Assembly (NCBI RefSeq): GCF_024138675.1
Contig: NZ_CP090959.1
Location: 1,891,501-1,955,500 of the forward strand
Direction of reading: 5' to 3'
Length of the DNA stretch: 64,000 nucleotides
Source of the DNA: Simiduia sp. 21SJ11W-1
Lineage (GTDB): Bacteria > Pseudomonadota > Gammaproteobacteria > Pseudomonadales > Cellvibrionaceae
Shown: positions 609 to 14,588 of the stretch, in pieces
Layout: each line of letters starts with the position of its first letter
Position numbering within the stretch: the first letter of the stretch is position 1
Position numbers and translations under genes: made by a program
The notes under the pieces: generated by a model
Told to the model about the DNA's origin: nothing
Seen by the model: the letters and a program-made list of their open reading frames with translations, nothing else
Database searches by the model: none

Positions 609-1156
609 TGAAAATTTCTGGATTTGAAAACCCCGACCTTTTGCTGGTTGAGCCTGAGGTTTTTGGTGATGAACGAGGTTTTTTTTACGAAAGTTTCAAT
701 AAAGAAAAATTTGACGCTGCGGTGGGCCGCCCTGTGGAATTTGTTCAGGATAATCACTCGAAGTCCGCAAAGGGGGTGCTGCGTGGATTGCACTATCAAT
801 TGCCGCCTCACGCACAAGGAAAGCTGGTAAGGGTTGTCAAAGGTGCGGTTTTCGATGTGGCAGTTGATATCAGGCGTTCTTCTCCTTTCTTTGGAAAGTG
901 GCAGGGCGTAGTTCTTTCTGCTGAAAACAAGAAGCAATTTTGGATTCCGGAAGGATTTGCCCATGGTTTTCTTACGTTGACTGATGATGTTGAATTTCTA
1001 TACAAAACAACCAGCTACTATGCGCCAGAATCAGACAGAAATATTCTCTGGAACGATAGTAATTTAGGTATCGAATGGGGATTAGAAGTTGATCCAGTGC
1101 TGTCATCTAAAGATCAATTCGCAAGCCCTTTTTTGAAGGCGGATTGTTTTGGCTGA
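608..1156 (+). CDS. rmlC: dTDP-4-dehydrorhamnose 3,5-epimerase
   Basis: A 182-residue cupin enzyme of normal family length (about 180). It carries the RmlC motifs 'FYESFN', 'QDNHSKS', 'GVLRGLHYQ' with the catalytic His, 'GAVFDVAVDIRRSS' and 'IPEGFAHGF'. It epimerises C3 and C5 of dTDP-4-keto-6-deoxyglucose, the third step of dTDP-L-rhamnose synthesis. Its ATG overlaps the rmlA stop. Coupling to rmlA and to the ABC exporter genes behind it indicates that rhamnose, or a sugar derived from it, is part of the exported glycan. Confidence 0.96.
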   Translation: MKISGFENPDLLLVEPEVFGDERGFFYESFNKEKFDAAVGRPVEFVQDNHSKSAKGVLRGLHYQLPPHAQGKLVRVVKGAVFDVAVDIRRSSPFFGKWQGVVLSAENKKQFWIPEGFAHGFLTLTDDVEFLYKTTSYYAPESDRNILWNDSNLGIEWGLEVDPVLSSKDQFASPFLKADCFG

Positions 1157-1170
1157 CAAGTCAGGCCTTA

Positions 1171-1177
1171 AAAGGAG
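1171..1177 (+). promoter_or_regulatory. Ribosome binding site deciding the start of the ABC permease
   Basis: AAAGGAG lies 7 bases before an in-frame TTG at 1185. An earlier in-frame TTG at 1149 lies within the end of rmlC and has no comparable site, so 1185 is preferred. Confidence 0.6.
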
Positions 1178-1184
1178 TCTTCGG

Positions 1185-1973
1185 TTGATTGAAATATTTA
1201 GAATTGCGCTAAACGATATCGGTGATGGGCTTCGTCGCAAAGATGTCTGGGTTGAGTTGGCTAAAGAAGATATTGGTGATCAACACAAAAAAACGTTGTT
1301 AGGACCACTCTGGCTTTTGGTCAACTACCTCCTATTTGCATGCACATTTATTTACGTGTTTAAGATGGGAGGTGATATTGAAGGTTATACAGTGCATGTT
1401 GCAGTCGGTCTGTTGATTTGGTTGTATATGTCTGAAGTTATCTCGCAAGGTGTAGTATTGTTCGGTAAAGAGCAAAGCTTTATTAAAGGAACTCGATTGC
1501 CTCTTACTGTTTACGTTCTTCGCTTGACGACGCAATCAGTTATTCGTGCAGTGTATGCTTTTGTTGGTTGTATTGCGTTGTTATTTGTTGGTGGTTTTGC
1601 ATTTACAGAAACCTGGTACATATCCATTTTGGGTTTAATTTTGATCATAGTCTCCACACCAGCGGTAGTGTATTTTTTTGCTTTTGTGGGCGCCTTCTTC
1701 CCTGATGTACAGTTTTTGGTTTCAAATATTATGCGGATTGGGATGTTTCTGACACCTGTTTTCTGGGTCTATGATAATGCAGGTGGTATAAGATATTTGC
1801 TATATAGTTGGAATCCATTCACGTATTATATTGAGCTTGTAAGGGCTCCCTTAATGTCGGCAAGCCCAGACTGGCTTGTGTTGACAAAGTGTATTGGGAT
1901 GTCAGTAGTGTTTTGGCTTGTTGCGTTTTTACTTTTGGGTACTCTTAAAAAACGAGTTGCGTTTGTAATCTAA
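1185..1973 (+). CDS. wzm: ABC-2 type polysaccharide export permease (Wzm-like)
   Basis: The product has about 262 residues with six predicted membrane segments, for example around 'LLVNYLLFACTFIYVFKMGG', 'AVGLLIWLYMSEVI', 'ILGLILIIVSTPAVVYFFAF' and 'VFWLVAFLLLGTL'. An amphipathic N-terminal stretch precedes 'KTLLGPLWLLVNY', the usual G-x-LW motif of ABC-2 O-antigen and teichoic-acid permeases. It should carry lipid-linked polysaccharide across the inner membrane together with the ATPase encoded next. Start chosen at TTG 1185 because of a strong ribosome binding site; TTG 1149 is the alternative. The stop overlaps the ATPase start (TAATG). The symbol is by function, not by proven orthology. 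Confidence 0.88.
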   Translation: MIEIFRIALNDIGDGLRRKDVWVELAKEDIGDQHKKTLLGPLWLLVNYLLFACTFIYVFKMGGDIEGYTVHVAVGLLIWLYMSEVISQGVVLFGKEQSFIKGTRLPLTVYVLRLTTQSVIRAVYAFVGCIALLFVGGFAFTETWYISILGLILIIVSTPAVVYFFAFVGAFFPDVQFLVSNIMRIGMFLTPVFWVYDNAGGIRYLLYSWNPFTYYIELVRAPLMSASPDWLVLTKCIGMSVVFWLVAFLLLGTLKKRVAFVI

Positions 1974-2707
1974 TGGTTCAGATAGTCTGTGAAAATGCAT
2001 CTATTGCATATAAAGTTCAAGCTAAAGGAACGAGCATCCTGAGCAGAACGAACAAAACTTCAGCGGATCCTAGACTCATAATGACAGGGAGCTCAGGAGA
2101 AGTTCGAGCTTTAGATGGTGTAACGTTCACCCTAAAAGAGGGTGATCGCTTAGGTCTTGTTGGTGGCAACGGTGCAGGTAAAACAACTTTACTTAAACTA
2201 ATTTATGGCGTGCTGACACCTTCTGCTGGCCGTGTTTCTGTACGGGGATCTGTCGATGCGCTATTTAACATTAATTTAGGCTTCCGCCCCTGTTCCACCG
2301 GGCGGCGCAATATATTGCTTCGCGGCTTGATTAACGGTTGGTCAAAAGCTGATATTGAACGCCGAATGGATGAGATTATCGCTTTTAGTGAGCTTGATGA
2401 ATTTATTGATCTGCCATTCAATACTTATAGTCAAGGCATGGCGGCGAGACTTGCATTTTCCGTTGCCACTGCTTTAGATCCAGAAATACTTTTAATGGAC
2501 GAATGGTTAGGGGCGGGCGATCCATCTTTTCAGGAAAAGGCAGCCAAAAGAATGGAGGAGATAACCGCGCGTGCAGGGATAATTGTTTTGGCAAGTCATA
2601 ATGGAAATCTGATACGGAGGACTTGCAACAAGATTCTGGAGCTGAAGAGGGGGCATGCTTTGCCTATTTGTACTATCGACGAATGGAATCAGAGAAGTAG
2701 CAGTTAA
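1973..2707 (+). CDS. wzt: Polysaccharide ABC transporter ATP-binding protein (Wzt-like, short form)
   Basis: A 244-residue ABC ATPase. Walker A 'GGNGAGKTT' is at about 64-72, the signature region 'YSQGMAARLAF' at about 152, Walker B/D-loop 'ILLMDEWLGAGD' at about 173, and the switch His is in 'LASHNGNL'. 'YSQGM' is typical of O-antigen and teichoic-acid exporters. It lacks the C-terminal carbohydrate-binding domain of long Wzt proteins, so the exporter is unlikely to read a terminal cap through Wzt as in E. coli O8/O9a. It energises export of undecaprenyl-linked glycan with the preceding permease, whose stop it overlaps. Confidence 0.93.
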   Translation: MVQIVCENASIAYKVQAKGTSILSRTNKTSADPRLIMTGSSGEVRALDGVTFTLKEGDRLGLVGGNGAGKTTLLKLIYGVLTPSAGRVSVRGSVDALFNINLGFRPCSTGRRNILLRGLINGWSKADIERRMDEIIAFSELDEFIDLPFNTYSQGMAARLAFSVATALDPEILLMDEWLGAGDPSFQEKAAKRMEEITARAGIIVLASHNGNLIRRTCNKILELKRGHALPICTIDEWNQRSSS

Positions 2708-6486: not shown

Positions 6487-6748
6487 AGGGTCTAAGTAGC
6501 CTTTTTGATGGTCTGTCGATTGGGGTTGGTTAAACTACCCGTTTACTTGTCTAGTTCTCAAGAATAGATAAAGCTTATTCCAGAGTTGGAGTGGCGAGAA
6601 TTTGGCTGAGCTTAAAGATGATGGTTTATGTGTCGTGTTTGCCTTGAGAAACGTACATTTTGAATGTTCAGATACATTTTTCCCAATATAAACTCTAGTT
6701 GTATTTGCTTATCTATGAAAGTTAGAAACAGATCTAAGGTGCACTTTG

Positions 6749-9700
6749 ATGTCTGAAAAAACAGCATTGGTCATTGTCGGAATGCATCGTTCAGGCACTT
6801 CCTGCTTAAGTGGAATTCTGGCCATATTGGGTGCGCTGCCACCAGCCCATTTGATACCTGCCAATGAAGCCAATAAAAAAGGGTATTGGGAATCTTTCGA
6901 GATCAATCGATTTAACGATAGCGTGCTGGCTGATCTTGGTCAGAGTTGGAGAGATATCTACCCAATCGAATTAAAGCGTTTGGATTCAACAAAGCTGTCG
7001 GCTTATGTAGGTCAGGCAGAAAAAATAATAGAACAGGAATTTGATGGCCGTACGCTGCCATTGATAAAAGATCCCAGAATTTCGCTCGTGCAGCCTATAT
7101 GGCATAGCGCTTTGGATATGGCTGGGTACAAACCCAAGTATGTTTTTACGGTAAGAAACCCCGATGAAATAGCCAGCTCACTCGTAAAGCGGAATGGCAT
7201 GGGCTACTTCCATAGCTTAATGTTGACAATACGCTACTGGCTTGATGTTGAGTACTACACGCGAGATCAGCCCAGAGTTTTTGTGCATTTTGACCTACTC
7301 CTCGATGACTGGAAGGAGCAGGCTTCAAGAATCTGCAATACTCTCGACTTTGATTGGCCAAATTCCGTTGAGACTGTGATAGAAGACGTTGAAGCCTACC
7401 TCGAAGGAGATCTTCGACATTTTTCTACGAAATCCGGATATGGGAATGAGATATATAGCGTTTATAAACAGGCGCAAGAGCTGCATGAGCTGTTTGTCAG
7501 GTGGAGCAAGTTTGGAGAGGACAAAGAGTCATATGCTTATTTAGATGAATTGAAAGAAAGCTTTAACGCTGCAACCAAGCATATTGGTTTCGGTTTTATA
7601 AAAGATCAGGACCGAATGCGGCTAGAAACGAAATCCATGAAGAAAGATATTTCAGTGTTTACAAAACAGAAAGATGAGGCTGCTCAAAAGTTAGAGGCTT
7701 TTGAGGTTGAGCTAAGGGATATCAAGAACTCAAGTTCCAGGTTGGTCACCGAGCATCAAATGGAGGTCGAGCAATATCGGAATAAGGTATTTGCACTTGA
7801 AAATACATCTGACAATCAAAGACAAACTATCAACCTACTTCAAAGTCAGGCAAAAACCCTTGAAGATCAGATCGTGCTACTAAACAATCAGGCTGCAGTG
7901 GAGTCAGCACGATACAGTGACGCCTTAAAAGAAAATGGCGAATTACAAAGAGAGTTGCGAGAAGAGATCAAGAGGTGTGCTCAGCTTGAAGCTCGTGACT
8001 CAGTTATCACGAAGCGAATTGAAGAGCTAGAAAATTCTTTTTCTAAGATTCTGCCTAAGATAGAACAGTCTTTTGTAAAATCAGATTCGCAAGCCCATTT
8101 ACAGGGCGAAGAAATAAAGCGTTTGCGGGAAGAGATTAGAAATATTGTCCAGCTTGATGCTCGTGACTCAGTTTTCTTGAAACGAATTGAAGAGCTGGAA
8201 AATTCCTTTGCAAATATTCAGTCTGAAAAAAAGCAATCCATCATAAAAGAAGATTTGCAAGACCAGTTGCAAGTCGAAGAAATAAAGCGTTTGAAACGAG
8301 AGCTAAAATCGCAAAAAACGAAATACGCTGATCTTGTTAAAAGACACAAAGAAGTGTGTGAAAGGTTTTCCCGTAGCAAGCAGAGCATCATTCGGTTAAA
8401 AGAAGATGTCAAATCTAAGCGCAGTATAGTTGAAGTAGAACCCACTGGCACAATCCGACAAGCACTATACCATAGCCTGTTAAAAGTGAATGTTATTAGC
8501 CGTGCCCGAAATAAAATTCGGAATGGTAAGATTGTCAAAGTCATTAAGGATTCCGGAGTATTTGACAGTGGCTGGTATCTGAATTGTTACCCTGATGTTG
8601 AACATGCAGGCGTAGACCCTGTTTCACATTATGTAAGATTTGGCGCCTCAGAGGGCAGAAATCCCTCTCAGAATTTTGATAGCCATCTTTACTTATTAGC
8701 CAATCCAGATGTTGCAAAGGCCAATATTAACCCTCTATACCACTACATAATGTATGGGCAGTCAGAGGGGCGTCCGTTATTGCCTTCGGGCGCACGTAAT
8801 CGAGATGCATTGGCTATAGCGGATTTGGCACACACGGTATCTAAAACGTCACAGCCGGTTCGTAAGTTTAACAGCGAACAGCCTTTGCCCCCTGTTGTAC
8901 CCGACTTTGCTACTTTTTCCGCTGAAGCGATGTCGTCTGTGGTGGATAAAGCGTTGGCAAAGAAAATGATCTGCGATAATTCCCGCGCCAAAGCAATGGA
9001 GCGATCCTCGTTATCAACTGACTACATACAGCAATTGGTCCACGTTTTTGCTCGGCTCTCTGGCGTTTCGGGATCGAATGTCGAAAAGACGCTCAGAGAT
9101 GCACAAGTTTTTGGCGTCACCTCTACAACTAGCGTTAAACCGACTAATAGTGGGTTAGTGGCTCAGCGCGAAAGCGATGGTGTGCTGAAAATACAAGATT
9201 TATTTATTAGCAGTCAACGAAAGCTAAAAGTACGCGTTGCAACTGGTGGAAATTTCGCGTCGCAGCAGGTTACTTTTTACCTTATTCAGGTAAGTGATGA
9301 CTCAACCGGAACGAAAGAATGTCGTTCTATCGTTGAAAAATCCAACCTGGAAAATTCTCTCCATCAGGTTGAGATGAGACTTATTAATCCGTTCCTACCG
9401 GTACTACTTTTGGCAGCCAATAGTGACGGCGATGTGATTGAGAGTGCTCAGCTTTTATTTCCTTCGCTGGCGCGGGGTGGTGCTCATTACGCCGAGCTAC
9501 TGTCATTCCAAAGAAATACGGGTATTGAAAGCTATACGGCGGCTGTTACAGAGTACTCCACCAGACTTGCTGAATCAGCGTTTATTCAGGCTAATGAAGG
9601 CGAAACACAGTTCAAACTCATAATCACGGGAGAAAGCCTTACTGGTCGAGAGAGAATATTTTCATCTGACGTATTAAACTGGTTTTCAGCAAATAGTAAT

Positions 9701-10852
9701 ATCCAACTGAGCTTTTTCAACAATCCCTCCCCACACCTCTTATACCTGGAAGACAAGCTATCCAAATTTAAATGTCAAAGTGTCGGTAGCGATGAAGCTA
9801 GTTCAGCCTTGATGATTGCTGGCGATTCCATACCCACACTGGGTGCTGTATACGGTCTCACAGCAGCAGCCATTGGGAAATCCTCTGCAATTGTAGGGGG
9901 GCAACTGATTGTTGACCGCGTGGCAAATAGATCAATTTATGAGGTAATACCCAGGACGACAGCTGAGATTTCAGTTGATCTCATTGGCTCTTCAGTCGGG
10001 CTTCCCCTGTTTTTCCGAGCGCAGAATGTGCGAGAGATGGGGCAAGTCACAAGCTGTATTTATACCCCGCAGGCGTTATCCATTAAGTTTTGCGAAGTAG
10101 GTCGCTCTGCGGAATCAACACTGATTTACTCAACCTGCCCACCAGCTAAGCCAGGACAAGTAGCAGCGAATCGAGACGCATCATACTGGCCTAGCATAAG
10201 TGTCATTTTAAGCGATTCATTAAAAGATATTGAGAGCTTGGTGGCATCGATTTGCCTACAGCAACATGTGAACATAAGCTCGATATATCTTAAGTCCGAT
10301 TCAAAGAAGCATCGAGATTCTTTGGTTGACCTAATCCCTAATGATATATCATTAAAATATTATGATGAAGACAGCCAGCTGATTGATTTGATTCTCAACG
10401 AGAAGCCAGGCTTTGTCGCCAGCGTCAATGCTAAGGTTTTGCACGACCCGCGAACATTTTCACAACTTGCAAAATCTGCGGGTGCTGAAAACGTCGCATC
10501 AGTCACGTGTGGATTCGTATACGAAGATAGTGCGTTGGGCATGCAAGCCGTAAAAAGCAATATTTGTGCAGACGGTTATGAGCAGCCTTACAAATTGGAG
10601 TTGGGAATCGCTAGTTTATTGCCATCGGCTTTGTTGCCAATAGAATCAAATAAGCATGCTGTTAGAGTTTCTTGCTTCAGTCAGTGGAAAAAGTTAGTTT
10701 TGACGGAAGATATTATCGCTGAACAAGCCACTCCTAATTTTGTTCATCTTATTGACACCAGCCTCACTGCAACCATCGATCCCTCATTATCCGAATCGAT
10801 GAACTTTTTCGATGCTGAAGTTGGTACTAAAATCGTAAGGTACACGGTATGA
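6749..10852 (+). CDS. 1367-residue mosaic: sulfotransferase-like domain, coiled coil, paired 'YPDV..HY..GxxEGR' repeats, degenerate glycosyltransferase-like C terminus
   Basis: Residues 1-270 resemble a PAPS-dependent sulfotransferase: 'VIVGMHRSGTSCLSG' is a 5'-phosphosulfate loop and 'PKYVFTVRNPDEIASSL' the 3'-phosphate segment. Residues ~300-560 are a charged coiled coil with two tandem 56-residue repeats (403-458, 459-514). Residues ~600-678 hold two copies of a 'YLxxxPDVxxAxxxPxxHYxxxGxxEGR' module seen in large glycosyltransferases. Residues ~780-1140 are unrecognised. Residues ~1146-1270 ('ISVILSDSLKDIESLV...') look like a GT-A Rossmann half without a clear D-x-D. The stop overlaps the next gene's start (ATGA). 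It could sulfate or cap the glycan, or act as a chain-length scaffold; this is inference. Confidence 0.7.
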   Translation: MSEKTALVIVGMHRSGTSCLSGILAILGALPPAHLIPANEANKKGYWESFEINRFNDSVLADLGQSWRDIYPIELKRLDSTKLSAYVGQAEKIIEQEFDGRTLPLIKDPRISLVQPIWHSALDMAGYKPKYVFTVRNPDEIASSLVKRNGMGYFHSLMLTIRYWLDVEYYTRDQPRVFVHFDLLLDDWKEQASRICNTLDFDWPNSVETVIEDVEAYLEGDLRHFSTKSGYGNEIYSVYKQAQELHELFVRWSKFGEDKESYAYLDELKESFNAATKHIGFGFIKDQDRMRLETKSMKKDISVFTKQKDEAAQKLEAFEVELRDIKNSSSRLVTEHQMEVEQYRNKVFALENTSDNQRQTINLLQSQAKTLEDQIVLLNNQAAVESARYSDALKENGELQRELREEIKRCAQLEARDSVITKRIEELENSFSKILPKIEQSFVKSDSQAHLQGEEIKRLREEIRNIVQLDARDSVFLKRIEELENSFANIQSEKKQSIIKEDLQDQLQVEEIKRLKRELKSQKTKYADLVKRHKEVCERFSRSKQSIIRLKEDVKSKRSIVEVEPTGTIRQALYHSLLKVNVISRARNKIRNGKIVKVIKDSGVFDSGWYLNCYPDVEHAGVDPVSHYVRFGASEGRNPSQNFDSHLYLLANPDVAKANINPLYHYIMYGQSEGRPLLPSGARNRDALAIADLAHTVSKTSQPVRKFNSEQPLPPVVPDFATFSAEAMSSVVDKALAKKMICDNSRAKAMERSSLSTDYIQQLVHVFARLSGVSGSNVEKTLRDAQVFGVTSTTSVKPTNSGLVAQRESDGVLKIQDLFISSQRKLKVRVATGGNFASQQVTFYLIQVSDDSTGTKECRSIVEKSNLENSLHQVEMRLINPFLPVLLLAANSDGDVIESAQLLFPSLARGGAHYAELLSFQRNTGIESYTAAVTEYSTRLAESAFIQANEGETQFKLIITGESLTGRERIFSSDVLNWFSANSNIQLSFFNNPSPHLLYLEDKLSKFKCQSVGSDEASSALMIAGDSIPTLGAVYGLTAAAIGKSSAIVGGQLIVDRVANRSIYEVIPRTTAEISVDLIGSSVGLPLFFRAQNVREMGQVTSCIYTPQALSIKFCEVGRSAESTLIYSTCPPAKPGQVAANRDASYWPSISVILSDSLKDIESLVASICLQQHVNISSIYLKSDSKKHRDSLVDLIPNDISLKYYDEDSQLIDLILNEKPGFVASVNAKVLHDPRTFSQLAKSAGAENVASVTCGFVYEDSALGMQAVKSNICADGYEQPYKLELGIASLLPSALLPIESNKHAVRVSCFSQWKKLVLTEDIIAEQATPNFVHLIDTSLTATIDPSLSESMNFFDAEVGTKIVRYTV

Positions 10853-12351
10853 GATTGTTAGTGCTAGTTTCATCTGAGGATGCTTTTCGTCAAGCAGGCG
10901 TGAGGATCAGGTACCAACGGATAGCAGAAAGCCTTAAGGCCGAGGATGGGTCTCTTACGCTTATGGCTATAACGGGCTTAGATGACGCCCAGAAAATTCT
11001 CAGTCAGTACGATAGCGTTCTTATTAGTAAATGCTACACAGTAAGGGGGTTGCTCGCGGCAAAGGTTGCAAGCCAACTTGGACTACAGGTTGGAATTGAT
11101 ATGTTTGATGACTATTTCAGTCAGACCGATGATCCGAGGTTTTCCCGGCTTCGCTACTGGTTGGCTAAAATTCAAGAATATTGTACCTTTGTATTGTGCT
11201 CGACCGGGGCAATCAGGTCTGTTTCTGAAAGCATATTGCCCAAGCTACCTCATCATGTAATGAATGATCCTTTTGATCAGCTCAATCCTACGCTAGTGGA
11301 AGAAAGGGTCTCGAAAAAAGCGATGCTTATTTCGGCAACGAAGAACATTCAGGTCGCTTGGTTTGGCATAGGAGACAATCCAAACTTTTCCGTTGGATTG
11401 GTCGATCTCGTAGGATTTTCAGGTGACTTTTCTGTACTTAGAGACGCAGGTTATTCAGTTCAACTCAAAATACTAACTAATGAACGAGCGTTGACATCGG
11501 ACAACCTTTCGCTTTTGGCTTCTCTGGATGTTGACTATTCGATAGACCTTTGGAGTGAAGAGAAAGAAGCAAAATTGCTGGAAGACAGTTTTCTTGCATA
11601 TCTTCCCGTAAACGCGCAGCCTTTTAGTCGCGTAAAATCCCTCAATAGATGTGTCACGGCCTTGTGCAGTGGCATACAAGTCCTGTCCAATGGCTATCCG
11701 CTCTATAAGGACTTAGGTCGCTTTATCTATAGCGATGTCGATCAGCTGGTGTCAGATTTAGACGTTTGCAGTTTTAAAGTGAATGCCAGCACGGTATCCG
11801 ACTTGAAGGTGACTCTGGAAATGCTCGCAAACCCTGAAGCAGAATCCCGAGGATTATTTCAGTTCTTGAATACCTTATCGCCACGAGTGATTGATCAGAA
11901 CGAAAATAAAATCAGATGCGCAGTCGTTCATGGCAGGGAGAGCTCCGGTGACGCACATAAGTTTGCTAGAAAGAATCAGGCGCTGTCAGTTTCTTCCCCC
12001 TATTGTCGATTGAATTTGAATTATGACGTTTTGGTCCGGTGGAGCGAAGATTCCCACAACATTGAAATACTCGTTTCAGAGAAGACTGCATCGCTGCTCG
12101 GTTACGTCAATATAGACTCTACATCAAAAACAAAGTTTGTGGACACCAATTATTTTAGAGCAATATCTGATGTTGTTCCGACTGCTGTTGAAAAGCAGTC
12201 TATCGCGCTATCCAGGAATGGCGGCAAAGTTGGCTATTGCCTGTCGTGTTCAAATGTATTGGGGCTTATTAGCCGCTCACTTTCGACGCTTTACCCAAAC
12301 CTCGACGTCATCCTTTCGGAAAATTCCAAGCTGCCATGGTTGCTGTCATAA
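10849..12351 (+). CDS. Putative GT-B type glycosyltransferase with extra C-terminal domain
   Basis: A 500-residue protein whose start overlaps the preceding stop (ATGA), implying coupled translation. The N-terminal ~130 residues ('LVLVSSEDAFRQAGVRIRYQR', then 'YDSVLISKCYTVRGLLAAKVA' and 'VGIDMFDDYF') look like the acceptor half of a GT4-type enzyme. The following part ('IQVAWFGIGDNPNF...', 'LLEDSFLAYLPVNAQPFSRVKSLNRCVTALCSG') fits a donor-binding half. Residues ~370-500 form an additional domain I do not recognise. No membrane segment is seen. A glycosyltransferase role is inferred from fold-like layout and locus; no motif proves it. Confidence 0.55.
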   Translation: MRLLVLVSSEDAFRQAGVRIRYQRIAESLKAEDGSLTLMAITGLDDAQKILSQYDSVLISKCYTVRGLLAAKVASQLGLQVGIDMFDDYFSQTDDPRFSRLRYWLAKIQEYCTFVLCSTGAIRSVSESILPKLPHHVMNDPFDQLNPTLVEERVSKKAMLISATKNIQVAWFGIGDNPNFSVGLVDLVGFSGDFSVLRDAGYSVQLKILTNERALTSDNLSLLASLDVDYSIDLWSEEKEAKLLEDSFLAYLPVNAQPFSRVKSLNRCVTALCSGIQVLSNGYPLYKDLGRFIYSDVDQLVSDLDVCSFKVNASTVSDLKVTLEMLANPEAESRGLFQFLNTLSPRVIDQNENKIRCAVVHGRESSGDAHKFARKNQALSVSSPYCRLNLNYDVLVRWSEDSHNIEILVSEKTASLLGYVNIDSTSKTKFVDTNYFRAISDVVPTAVEKQSIALSRNGGKVGYCLSCSNVLGLISRSLSTLYPNLDVILSENSKLPWLLS

Positions 12352-12368
12352 AAAGTTGATTCACGTTT

Positions 12369-14588
12369 ATGAAATCTAAAAATCACTCAGTATTTGTTTT
12401 CAATCTTCTTCAAGATGTTAACATTCTTCGCCCATTGGTTTACTTGGCATCATCCGAGATTGGGAGTTATACAACACTTCTGATAACAGAAGCCTTCTGT
12501 AAGAGGGATCAGTCCGGGGCATGGATGCAGGAACTGAAATCCATGTCAGCACAGACTGGTAGTCGGTTTGAGATCTTCGGTGCAACTCACAGTGGTATAA
12601 GCTTACTGTCCAATCGTTCTGGCATGATATTTTCGGGAAGTGAGTCCAATCTAAATGCACACAAACCAGTGCATGATTTGTTCCTGGCTTTACCCGAAAA
12701 CTGGTTGAAAGTGACACTGCAGCACGGTTTTGAATGCGTAGGCTTTATGCAGAGCCGAGATCAAAACTTGGCCCATGGTACGGAGGTTACGTTTGCGGCT
12801 GATGTCATTTGCGGCTGGTGCAGTAGCGAGAGGCTGTATTCGATTGCCCCCTCTCAGCGCTCAAAGCTTTTCGTAACAGGACCTACAAGCGTTCTACATT
12901 CTCAACCCGCCAGTAAAGAAACGTTACCGTATGGTATTGTCTGTGAGAATCTACATTCACCAAGAATGAAGACAGCCGGTGATTTCAAAAATCATTTTGT
13001 TGATGCGTTCGGCGAATTCAGTTCAATGGTGGCTGAAAATAAGGGAAAGGTAGTTCTAAGACCTCATCCAGGCGGACAGTATATTTTAAAGAATGATGTC
13101 CCAATTCCTGAGAATGTGATCATTAATAATCACCCAAGCTACAAGGTGGATTTTTCCCGATACGCGTATGGCATATCTGCTCCTTCCTCGGTGTTGATTG
13201 ACATGTTGCTGGCGAAAATTCCGGTTGCAGTATGGCGCGATGAGCATGGCAAGATGGACGCTGGAAACTATGCTGGCTTGACTGAAGTTAGTAATGCGAA
13301 GGAATGGTTCGACTTTGCTGGTGACGCAATGGTTAATAGACAAACGTACATTGAGCGCCAAGAAAAGTTTTTGAATAAGCTGGAAATGCCCACCCAGCCA
13401 TCGGAAGTATATAGTAGGTATAGGGTTCTGTTTGAGTCTTTTTCGGCCAGGTCCGTCGAGCCATTTGTAGAAAGACAAAAAAAGCGAATACTGTTCATAG
13501 CCAATGGCATAATACCCACAATTGAAATCAGTTTTTTCGAGCCCCTAAAATCAGATGTGGCAGCTGGCTCTCTGGAGTATGCCTGTTTAACAGAGTCTGA
13601 AATACGAAAACGTTATGGCAAAGATTTTGCCAGTCTGGAGGCCAGAGACTGGGCGATGGAGAAGCTGTTTCAATACCAGCCTACTCATATTGTTTTCTGT
13701 CGCTATAGTGGACCCTTTGTCACTGACTATACTGCTTTTGCTAAGCAGAGAAATGTACCTGTCATGTTTCATATTGACGATGACCTGTTGAGCATCCCCA
13801 AAGATTTTGGTGAAACCAAGTATAATTTCCACAATGACCCAAGTCGATTATCAACTGTAAGGCACTTGTTGGACAATGCCAATTTGGTCTATAGCTCAAC
13901 GGTATTGCTAAAAGAAAGGCTCGAGCACCTTGGAGCACGAGCAAAGATCCTAGCTGGTAAGATTTATTGTTCTGGTAAGATAGTTTCCCAGGCTAGAAAA
14001 TCAAACTCTTGCGTTGTCGGTTACATGGGGCATTCGGAAAAATTCGAAGATCTTATGATGATGTTGCCGGCACTAACGCGTTTTATGCGAGAGCATGATG
14101 ATGTCCGGTTTGAGCTTTTTGGGTCAATTGCAATGCCCAAAGAATTAGAGGAGTTTGGTGACAGGGTTTCCCTTCTGCCCGGCGTACAAGGGTATGAGCT
14201 ATTTCTTCGCGCGCTTGCAGAGAGGCGATGGGATATCGGAATATGCCCATTAAAGCCAACGCAGTTCAATAAGGTCAAAGCTAACACCAAGTGGTTGGAC
14301 TATACGGCCGTGGGTGCAGCAGTCATTGCTTCCTCGGGTTTGGTTTACGATGAGTGCTGTAGGGATGATTGTGGATTACTCGCCAATACGCAAGAAGAGT
14401 GGAGTGAGGCATTTAATCGCTTTTATAACGATCGGGAGTATCGGTATCAAGTAGTACGGAATGCTCAGGAAAAAGTAATGAGCGAGTACTCCATCGAGCA
14501 GCTTAGGCTTCAAGTGCTGAGCATGATTGATGAAGCATCTATTTCGCAAGTGTCGAAAACTAGATTGAGATCTGGCGTTATTGTTTAA
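12369..14588 (+). CDS. Two-domain glycosyltransferase: CDP-glycerol-transferase/LpxB-like N half, GT4-like C half
   Basis: A 739-residue protein. Residues ~1-350 resemble GT-B polymer transferases of the CDP-glycerol/polysialyl type: 'KVTLQHGFECVGF', 'KVVLRPHPGG' and 'YGISAPSSVLIDMLLAKIPVAVWRDE'. Residues ~370-735 look like a GT4 enzyme: 'KRILFIANGIIPTIE', 'VGYMGHSEKFEDLMMMLPAL', 'VSLLPGVQGYELFLRAL', 'DIGICPLKP' and 'KWLDYTAVGAAVIAS' (donor-site E replaced by D). It may make two successive linkages. No clear ribosome binding site precedes the ATG; the gap to the previous gene is 17 bases. Its stop overlaps the next start (TAATG). Donors unknown. Confidence 0.68.
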   Translation: MKSKNHSVFVFNLLQDVNILRPLVYLASSEIGSYTTLLITEAFCKRDQSGAWMQELKSMSAQTGSRFEIFGATHSGISLLSNRSGMIFSGSESNLNAHKPVHDLFLALPENWLKVTLQHGFECVGFMQSRDQNLAHGTEVTFAADVICGWCSSERLYSIAPSQRSKLFVTGPTSVLHSQPASKETLPYGIVCENLHSPRMKTAGDFKNHFVDAFGEFSSMVAENKGKVVLRPHPGGQYILKNDVPIPENVIINNHPSYKVDFSRYAYGISAPSSVLIDMLLAKIPVAVWRDEHGKMDAGNYAGLTEVSNAKEWFDFAGDAMVNRQTYIERQEKFLNKLEMPTQPSEVYSRYRVLFESFSARSVEPFVERQKKRILFIANGIIPTIEISFFEPLKSDVAAGSLEYACLTESEIRKRYGKDFASLEARDWAMEKLFQYQPTHIVFCRYSGPFVTDYTAFAKQRNVPVMFHIDDDLLSIPKDFGETKYNFHNDPSRLSTVRHLLDNANLVYSSTVLLKERLEHLGARAKILAGKIYCSGKIVSQARKSNSCVVGYMGHSEKFEDLMMMLPALTRFMREHDDVRFELFGSIAMPKELEEFGDRVSLLPGVQGYELFLRALAERRWDIGICPLKPTQFNKVKANTKWLDYTAVGAAVIASSGLVYDECCRDDCGLLANTQEEWSEAFNRFYNDREYRYQVVRNAQEKVMSEYSIEQLRLQVLSMIDEASISQVSKTRLRSGVIV

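Follow-up and report, generated by a model that had tools for sequence, protein, structure and literature searches.

A gene at positions 6749..10852 (+ strand) of a 64,000-nucleotide stretch of the Simiduia sp. 21SJ11W-1 genome, referred to here in its whole length as the window, encodes a 1367-amino-acid fusion protein in which a sulfotransferase (ST) domain is followed by a predicted coiled-coil rod, two EGR repeats and an orphan C-terminal region. We propose that this protein is a chain capper that would terminate a Wzm/Wzt-exported O-polysaccharide with sulfate and would measure it with a built-in rod, and that it is an ST-type analogue of WbdD and WbbB; we put the probability of this reading at about 0.48. 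The reading rests on the residues of the binding site for 3′-phosphoadenosine-5′-phosphosulfate (PAPS), the match to the ST fold and the long helices between ST and C-terminus; on an 8-heptad duplication in the rod and duplications in homologous linkers; and on related loci directly behind wzt, four loci whose Wzt bears a Wzt_C module, and sulfate-activation genes beside several loci. The sequence suggests sulfate as the cap, and we likewise infer PAPS-dependent activity, the position sulfated, termination, length control and docking.

In the mechanism that we envision, the lipid-linked chain would grow until its non-reducing end comes within reach of the ST, which lies at the far end of the rod, and would there be sulfated. 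The near end, made up of a basic helix, the EGR repeats and the C-terminal region, would anchor the rod to the membrane and provide a docking site for the polymerizing glycosyltransferases (GTs), probably the products of two coupled downstream genes (starting at 10849 and 12369). In O-polysaccharides exported by ATP-binding cassette (ABC) transporters, a coiled-coil ruler carries the terminator at its distal end, and the polymerase modules may be fused (O12, O7), docked (O9a) or separate (O4) (PMC11231755). Proteins in which an ST, a rod and a GT are joined would follow the same plan with another catalytic module, of which the window protein would be a version with a docked polymerase.

The sulfotransferase domain

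The open reading frame (ORF) is uninterrupted from an ATG at 6749 to the stop codon at 10850-10852, with a TTG at 6746, in agreement with the single 1367-residue protein described in the initial annotation, which was made from the sequence alone. The same annotation placed a sulfotransferase-like domain with a PAPS-type loop at the N-terminus, and our results bear this out for residues 1-250 (6749..7498). The sole Pfam match of the whole protein is PF13469 (E 2.3e-5); its score of 25.2 bits lies slightly under the curated cut-off of 27 bits, which is a database threshold and no biochemical criterion, and three homologues (L057, L063 and L059) exceed it. We aligned the window domain with 18 homologous N-termini. 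These 19 sequences show little or no variation at GMHRSGTS (residues 11-18; 6779-6802), N42, G45, E48, K107, P109 and R110 of a KDPR motif (107-110), R136, P138, S144 and R148; G11 and H13-S18 of the 5′-phosphosulfate loop, and R136, P138 and S144 of the 3′-phosphate site, show no exception at all.

The structural comparisons agree. A profile of the ST domains matches solved sulfotransferases in the PDB, and an AlphaFold2 (AF2) model of residues 1-690 has a mean predicted local distance difference test score (pLDDT) of 77, rising to about 90 in the ST part. In a Foldseek search with this model all six PDB matches with E <= 0.001 were sulfotransferases, each with probability 1.00. The predicted fold, which the annotation had proposed to inspect for an ST active site, thus retains the PAPS-site residues and has only sulfotransferases as its top PDB matches. 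Fold and PAPS-binding motifs are common to the window domain and PAPS-dependent sulfotransferases (the OLS and CurM ST domains, 4gox/4gbm; TPST, 5wri; PF13469). It differs from solved sulfotransferases in its low identity to the best fold matches (~11-17%), its fusion to a rod, its place in a polysaccharide operon and its whole-protein score under the Pfam cut-off. From its sequence, the N-terminus is probably a PAPS sulfotransferase with a complete PAPS site, and would be expected to add sulfate. Elsewhere in the same genome there are four further Sulfotransfer_3 proteins (G000 C1:2679550, 3350245, 994661 and 996671), in open frames of 508-557 amino acids.

The rod and its duplication

Behind the enzyme lies a rod of about 280 residues (about 280-556; 7586..8416), recognized from the AF2 model and from SMC-like coil matches. 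The long coiled coil claimed for this part corresponds to nearly unbroken AF2 helices at residues 280-350, 355-471, 476-490 and 501-556. The order of the parts, enzyme (1-250) and then helices (280-556), is clear; the coiled-coil state is a prediction, and AF2 confidence is moderate to low in the second half.

Within the rod is an in-frame tandem duplication of two 168-nt units (7955..8290), 76% identical in DNA and identical at 35/56 positions in protein. At 56 residues, the unit spans exactly 8 heptads and therefore leaves their register undisturbed. Among 30-residue self-matches in the rod the top score is 22, against a maximum of 11 over 100 shuffles. About a dozen homologous linkers also carry strong internal duplications, with shifts of, for example, 14, 21, 22, 28, 32, 43, 50 and 53 residues, several of them multiples of 7; one further duplication, at a shift of 107 (L058), probably lies outside the coil. 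The rod is therefore a part whose length evolves, although duplication alone is no proof of a ruler. If our reading is right, the window rod, in which a complete block of 8 heptads occurs twice, offers a clean test of one.

Relatives and exporter context

Matches to the window protein were found in 47 of 369 gammaproteobacterial genomes. From these we took the DNA around the best matches, picked by similarity and without regard to context, and obtained 31 ST-bearing ORFs. Most of the relatives examined are long proteins, and in 12 of the 14 homologues scanned GT2, GT4 or WbsX domains follow the ST and linker; shorter forms consist of ST and linker only (L059) or of ST, linker and EGR repeats (L066). 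ST, rod and EGR repeats occur together in four relatives (L054, L057, L064 and L066), which makes this layout a recurrent modular type. The annotation had singled the gene out for its unusual layout and had suggested a search for the same domain order in other genomes. Its first three elements are indeed found together elsewhere, whereas the C-terminal region turned up in only one other genome, G408. Only that region is rare; the rest of the layout is common in gammaproteobacteria.

The exporter genes lie 4 kb upstream of the fusion gene and on the same strand: wzm (1149..1973), for the ABC-2 membrane subunit, and wzt (1973..2707), for a 244-amino-acid ATPase subunit without a Wzt_C carbohydrate-binding module (CBM). 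A Wzt homologue is present within the fetched stretch at 14 of the 31 ST-bearing loci. At seven of the 31 (L055, L056, L059, L066, L071, L077 and L078) the ST gene stands directly after wzt on the same strand, with gaps of −96 to +74 nt, and at two more the gap is about 0.9-1.0 kb; some of these are close relatives, L055 and L056 belonging to one family and L077 and L078 to another, so that about five of the seven are independent. In E. coli O9a and Klebsiella O12 the same position is taken by wbdD and wbbB, respectively. The Wzt proteins carry a Wzt_C module at L059, L067, L071 and L074 and lack one in the window and at L056, L057, L066, L078 and L084. The simplest candidate for a sulfate terminator is at L059 (6306-9267), where a 444-amino-acid ST-coil protein, whose tail is basic and aromatic (RRWWGGR), is encoded by a gene overlapping that for a 557-amino-acid, CBM-bearing Wzt.

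Terminal or internal sulfate

Sulfate activation recurs around these genes. At L074 a cysC gene (11062-11721) abuts an ST-rod-GT fusion gene, which suggests a dedicated supply of PAPS; cysD and a cysN-cysC fusion lie near the L078 gene, and cysDN is found at L075. The window genome has cysD-cysN immediately outside the window, on its upstream side, with 22 bp between their end and rmlB; rmlB and rmlD lead into the O-antigen genes of the window, and, relative to the fusion gene, cysC lies about 23 kb upstream. These are the only copies of cysD and cysC found in that genome. We considered this linkage as specific proof of sulfation, but cysDN is also present at the same locus in G003, a genome of the same genus in which no ST was detected on the rod protein. 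Together with the single copy of cysD, this means that the linkage may be ordinary synteny, and we count it as weak evidence.

The rml and cysDN genes at the window locus also agree with the main competing explanation, according to which each repeat unit receives sulfate from the ST on an internal sugar such as rhamnose, and the rod and EGR repeats merely keep the enzyme attached to the polymerase and have no part in setting length. Marine sulfated capsules that go together with ABC exporters, rml genes, PAPS genes and sulfotransferases have their sulfate within the repeat unit itself (PMC11641403, PMC11766843). The fusion of ST to several GT domains in some homologues, and a window Wzt that lacks the cap-reading module, point the same way. 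However, stoichiometric decoration needs no long rod, the recurrent place right behind wzt and the ST-rod-polymerase order match those of terminators, and the Wzt at four loci bears a CBM. We therefore regard internal sulfation as a substantial alternative that is nonetheless less probable than a terminal cap.

Several further observations weigh against a sulfate terminator. The PF14524 cap-reading CBM, absent from the window Wzt by Pfam, is typical of capping systems (PMC11127046), and a Klebsiella O1/O2 exporter that has no such module works without a length-setting cap (PMC11231755). For this reason we do not file the window protein among the prototypical capping systems, and the likeness that we propose is one of working only. 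In the stretches fetched, a Wzt is missing from about half of the ST-bearing loci. The polymerase GT would be expected at the proximal end, where the C-terminus of the window protein has no family match. Finally, the open literature that we searched contains no experimentally shown ST terminator and no description of an ST-rod terminator, although the idea may have been proposed earlier, for example in a bioinformatic census of terminators (Mann, Kimber, Whitfield 2019, doi 10.1093/glycob/cwz066, cited in PMC11231755).

Comparison with known systems

The initial annotation likened the gene to the WbdA/WbdD type. The part of this comparison that stands is the recurrence of relatives behind wzm-wzt and near genes for PAPS synthesis; what does not fit is the CBM-less Wzt of the window, and a closer model for the layout is provided by WbbB of Klebsiella pneumoniae O12 and ORF6 of K. 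pneumoniae O7, in which terminator, coil and polymerase form a single chain. Shared with these proteins are an N-terminal chain-modifying enzyme, a long predicted coiled coil, a presumed C-terminal polymerase side and export by Wzm/Wzt, and homologues at L055, L056, L057, L071 and other loci have the order ST-linker-GT2/GT4. In WbbB and ORF6, however, the terminating chemistry is β-Kdo or methyl-phosphate rather than the predicted sulfotransfer, and the window protein has neither a recognized GT at its C-terminus nor a Wzt with a CBM. WbdD of E. coli O9a resembles it in having an enzyme at the end of a rod, a gene beside wzm-wzt and, if our reading holds, a docking end for separate polymerases, and the relative closest in format is the ST-coil protein at L059, alone behind a CBM-bearing Wzt. 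WbdD is a kinase-methyltransferase, though, with neither an ST domain nor EGR repeats.

A protein with an ST domain also lies beside the wzt of an ABC-2 O-antigen exporter in Aeromonas salmonicida (ORF19; PMC4483657). It is a stand-alone protein of 216 amino acids and is likened to the window protein by domain and position alone. No sulfate was found in the A. salmonicida O-antigen structure (PMC4483657), a result that would still allow for a cap at the chain end that had gone unnoticed. In nuclear magnetic resonance the terminal residues of chains of this kind are difficult to detect and can escape notice (PMC11127046), and sulfate caps could thus have been missed.

These comparisons lead us to a broader and more speculative suggestion, which we hold to be rather doubtful: ST-rod proteins may form a widespread class of O-antigen length rulers, so far undescribed by experiment, in which sulfate terminates the chain; an EGR subclass would be paired with exporters that lack a cap-reading module, and rod lengths would have evolved by in-register duplication of heptad blocks. 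Known ruler terminators add methyl, methyl-phosphate or Kdo caps. Sulfate would add a new chemistry to them, and such a class would account for the recurrence of ST domains on long rods behind wzt.

The basic helix and EGR repeats

At the foot of the rod is a strongly basic helix (residues about 570-602; 8456..8554), identified from the AF2 model and a charge count, with a net charge of up to +6 per 18 residues; contact with the membrane is possible. Two EGR repeats follow (WYLxxYPDV..HYxxxGxxEGR; residues about 604-680; 8558..8788). They had been noted from the sequence and are confirmed in the AF2 model, where the region has a pLDDT >90, and they matched no Pfam, NCBIfam or PDB family. A motif at the rod foot, SxSW[RK]xTxPLR, was set aside: it is found in 8/36 relatives and 0/194 background ORFs, and is absent from the window protein.

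EGR repeats also occur on rod proteins without a detectable ST (L084:8356-9810, L086:8059-9846, L087:9087-10715, L088:5716-7413, L092:2496-3983 and L093:11394-13220), which come from the genus, family and order of the window; the L084 gene follows wzm-wzt directly. The N-terminal domain of these proteins, about 200 amino acids long, matched no family. By eye it looked like a decayed ST (L084, L086, L087, L088 and L092), a likeness that neither hhalign nor hmmsearch supported.

That related rod-EGR proteins of the same genus and family have another N-terminal domain is what would be expected if the rod protein were mainly a scaffold of the synthesis complex, with chain length arising, as in Klebsiella O2a, from exporter/synthase stoichiometry and with an ST whose activity is minor or has been lost. 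EGR proteins also co-occur with CBM-less exporters: Wzt lacks the module at 10/10 EGR loci having Wzt, as compared with 5/9 loci that have an ST but no EGR (post hoc Fisher p 0.03), CBM absence being judged by Pfam at some loci and by length at others. Against this, every PAPS-site residue is kept in the window protein and in the ST-bearing homologues, and we consider a scaffold the least probable of the explanations weighed here.

The C-terminal region and downstream genes

For residues 690-1367 (8816..10849) we found no match in Pfam, NCBIfam or PDB. The GT-A-like fold without a DxD motif proposed in the initial annotation found no support: against a GT2 alignment hhalign gave a probability of 0.2% (E 0.29), the hmmsearch score of −0.4 bits fell within the range of shuffled decoys, and AF2 with a two-sequence input reached a pLDDT of only 32. 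The order of secondary structure in that very low-confidence model is weakly GT2-like, and real GT2 domains occupy the equivalent position in other ST-rod proteins. An inactive GT-A glycosyltransferase serving as a glycan-binding end, which would concern the C-terminus only and is compatible with any of the readings above, is nevertheless improbable, given scores within decoys and support from neither profile nor family.

Searches at the level of family, order and class, and in the family of G408, returned a single homologue of this region, on a short contig of G408 (C221, L094), from a different family of the same order, 23% identical over the aligned part. It is thus an orphan domain that recurs once. 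The G408 copy runs off the end of the contig, so that any upstream ST or rod part would lie beyond the assembled sequence. In the window the fusion gene is coupled to the next one, whose start overlaps its stop by 4 nt (ATGA). This gene (10849..12351, +) encodes a 500-amino-acid protein with distant similarity to GT4-like proteins, and the one after it (12369..14588, +) a 739-amino-acid protein with a C-terminal glycosyltransferase (PF13524, by Pfam). Homologues of both (39% and 48% identical, respectively) follow the G408 copy in the same order, and the three genes overlap or abut as in the window. The shared order indicates that the C-terminal domain and its two neighbours form a conserved module (window 10849-14588; L094:3202-8506). 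In G408 an epimerase gene and a stand-alone Sulfotransfer_1 gene (L094:1232-2026) adjoin it.

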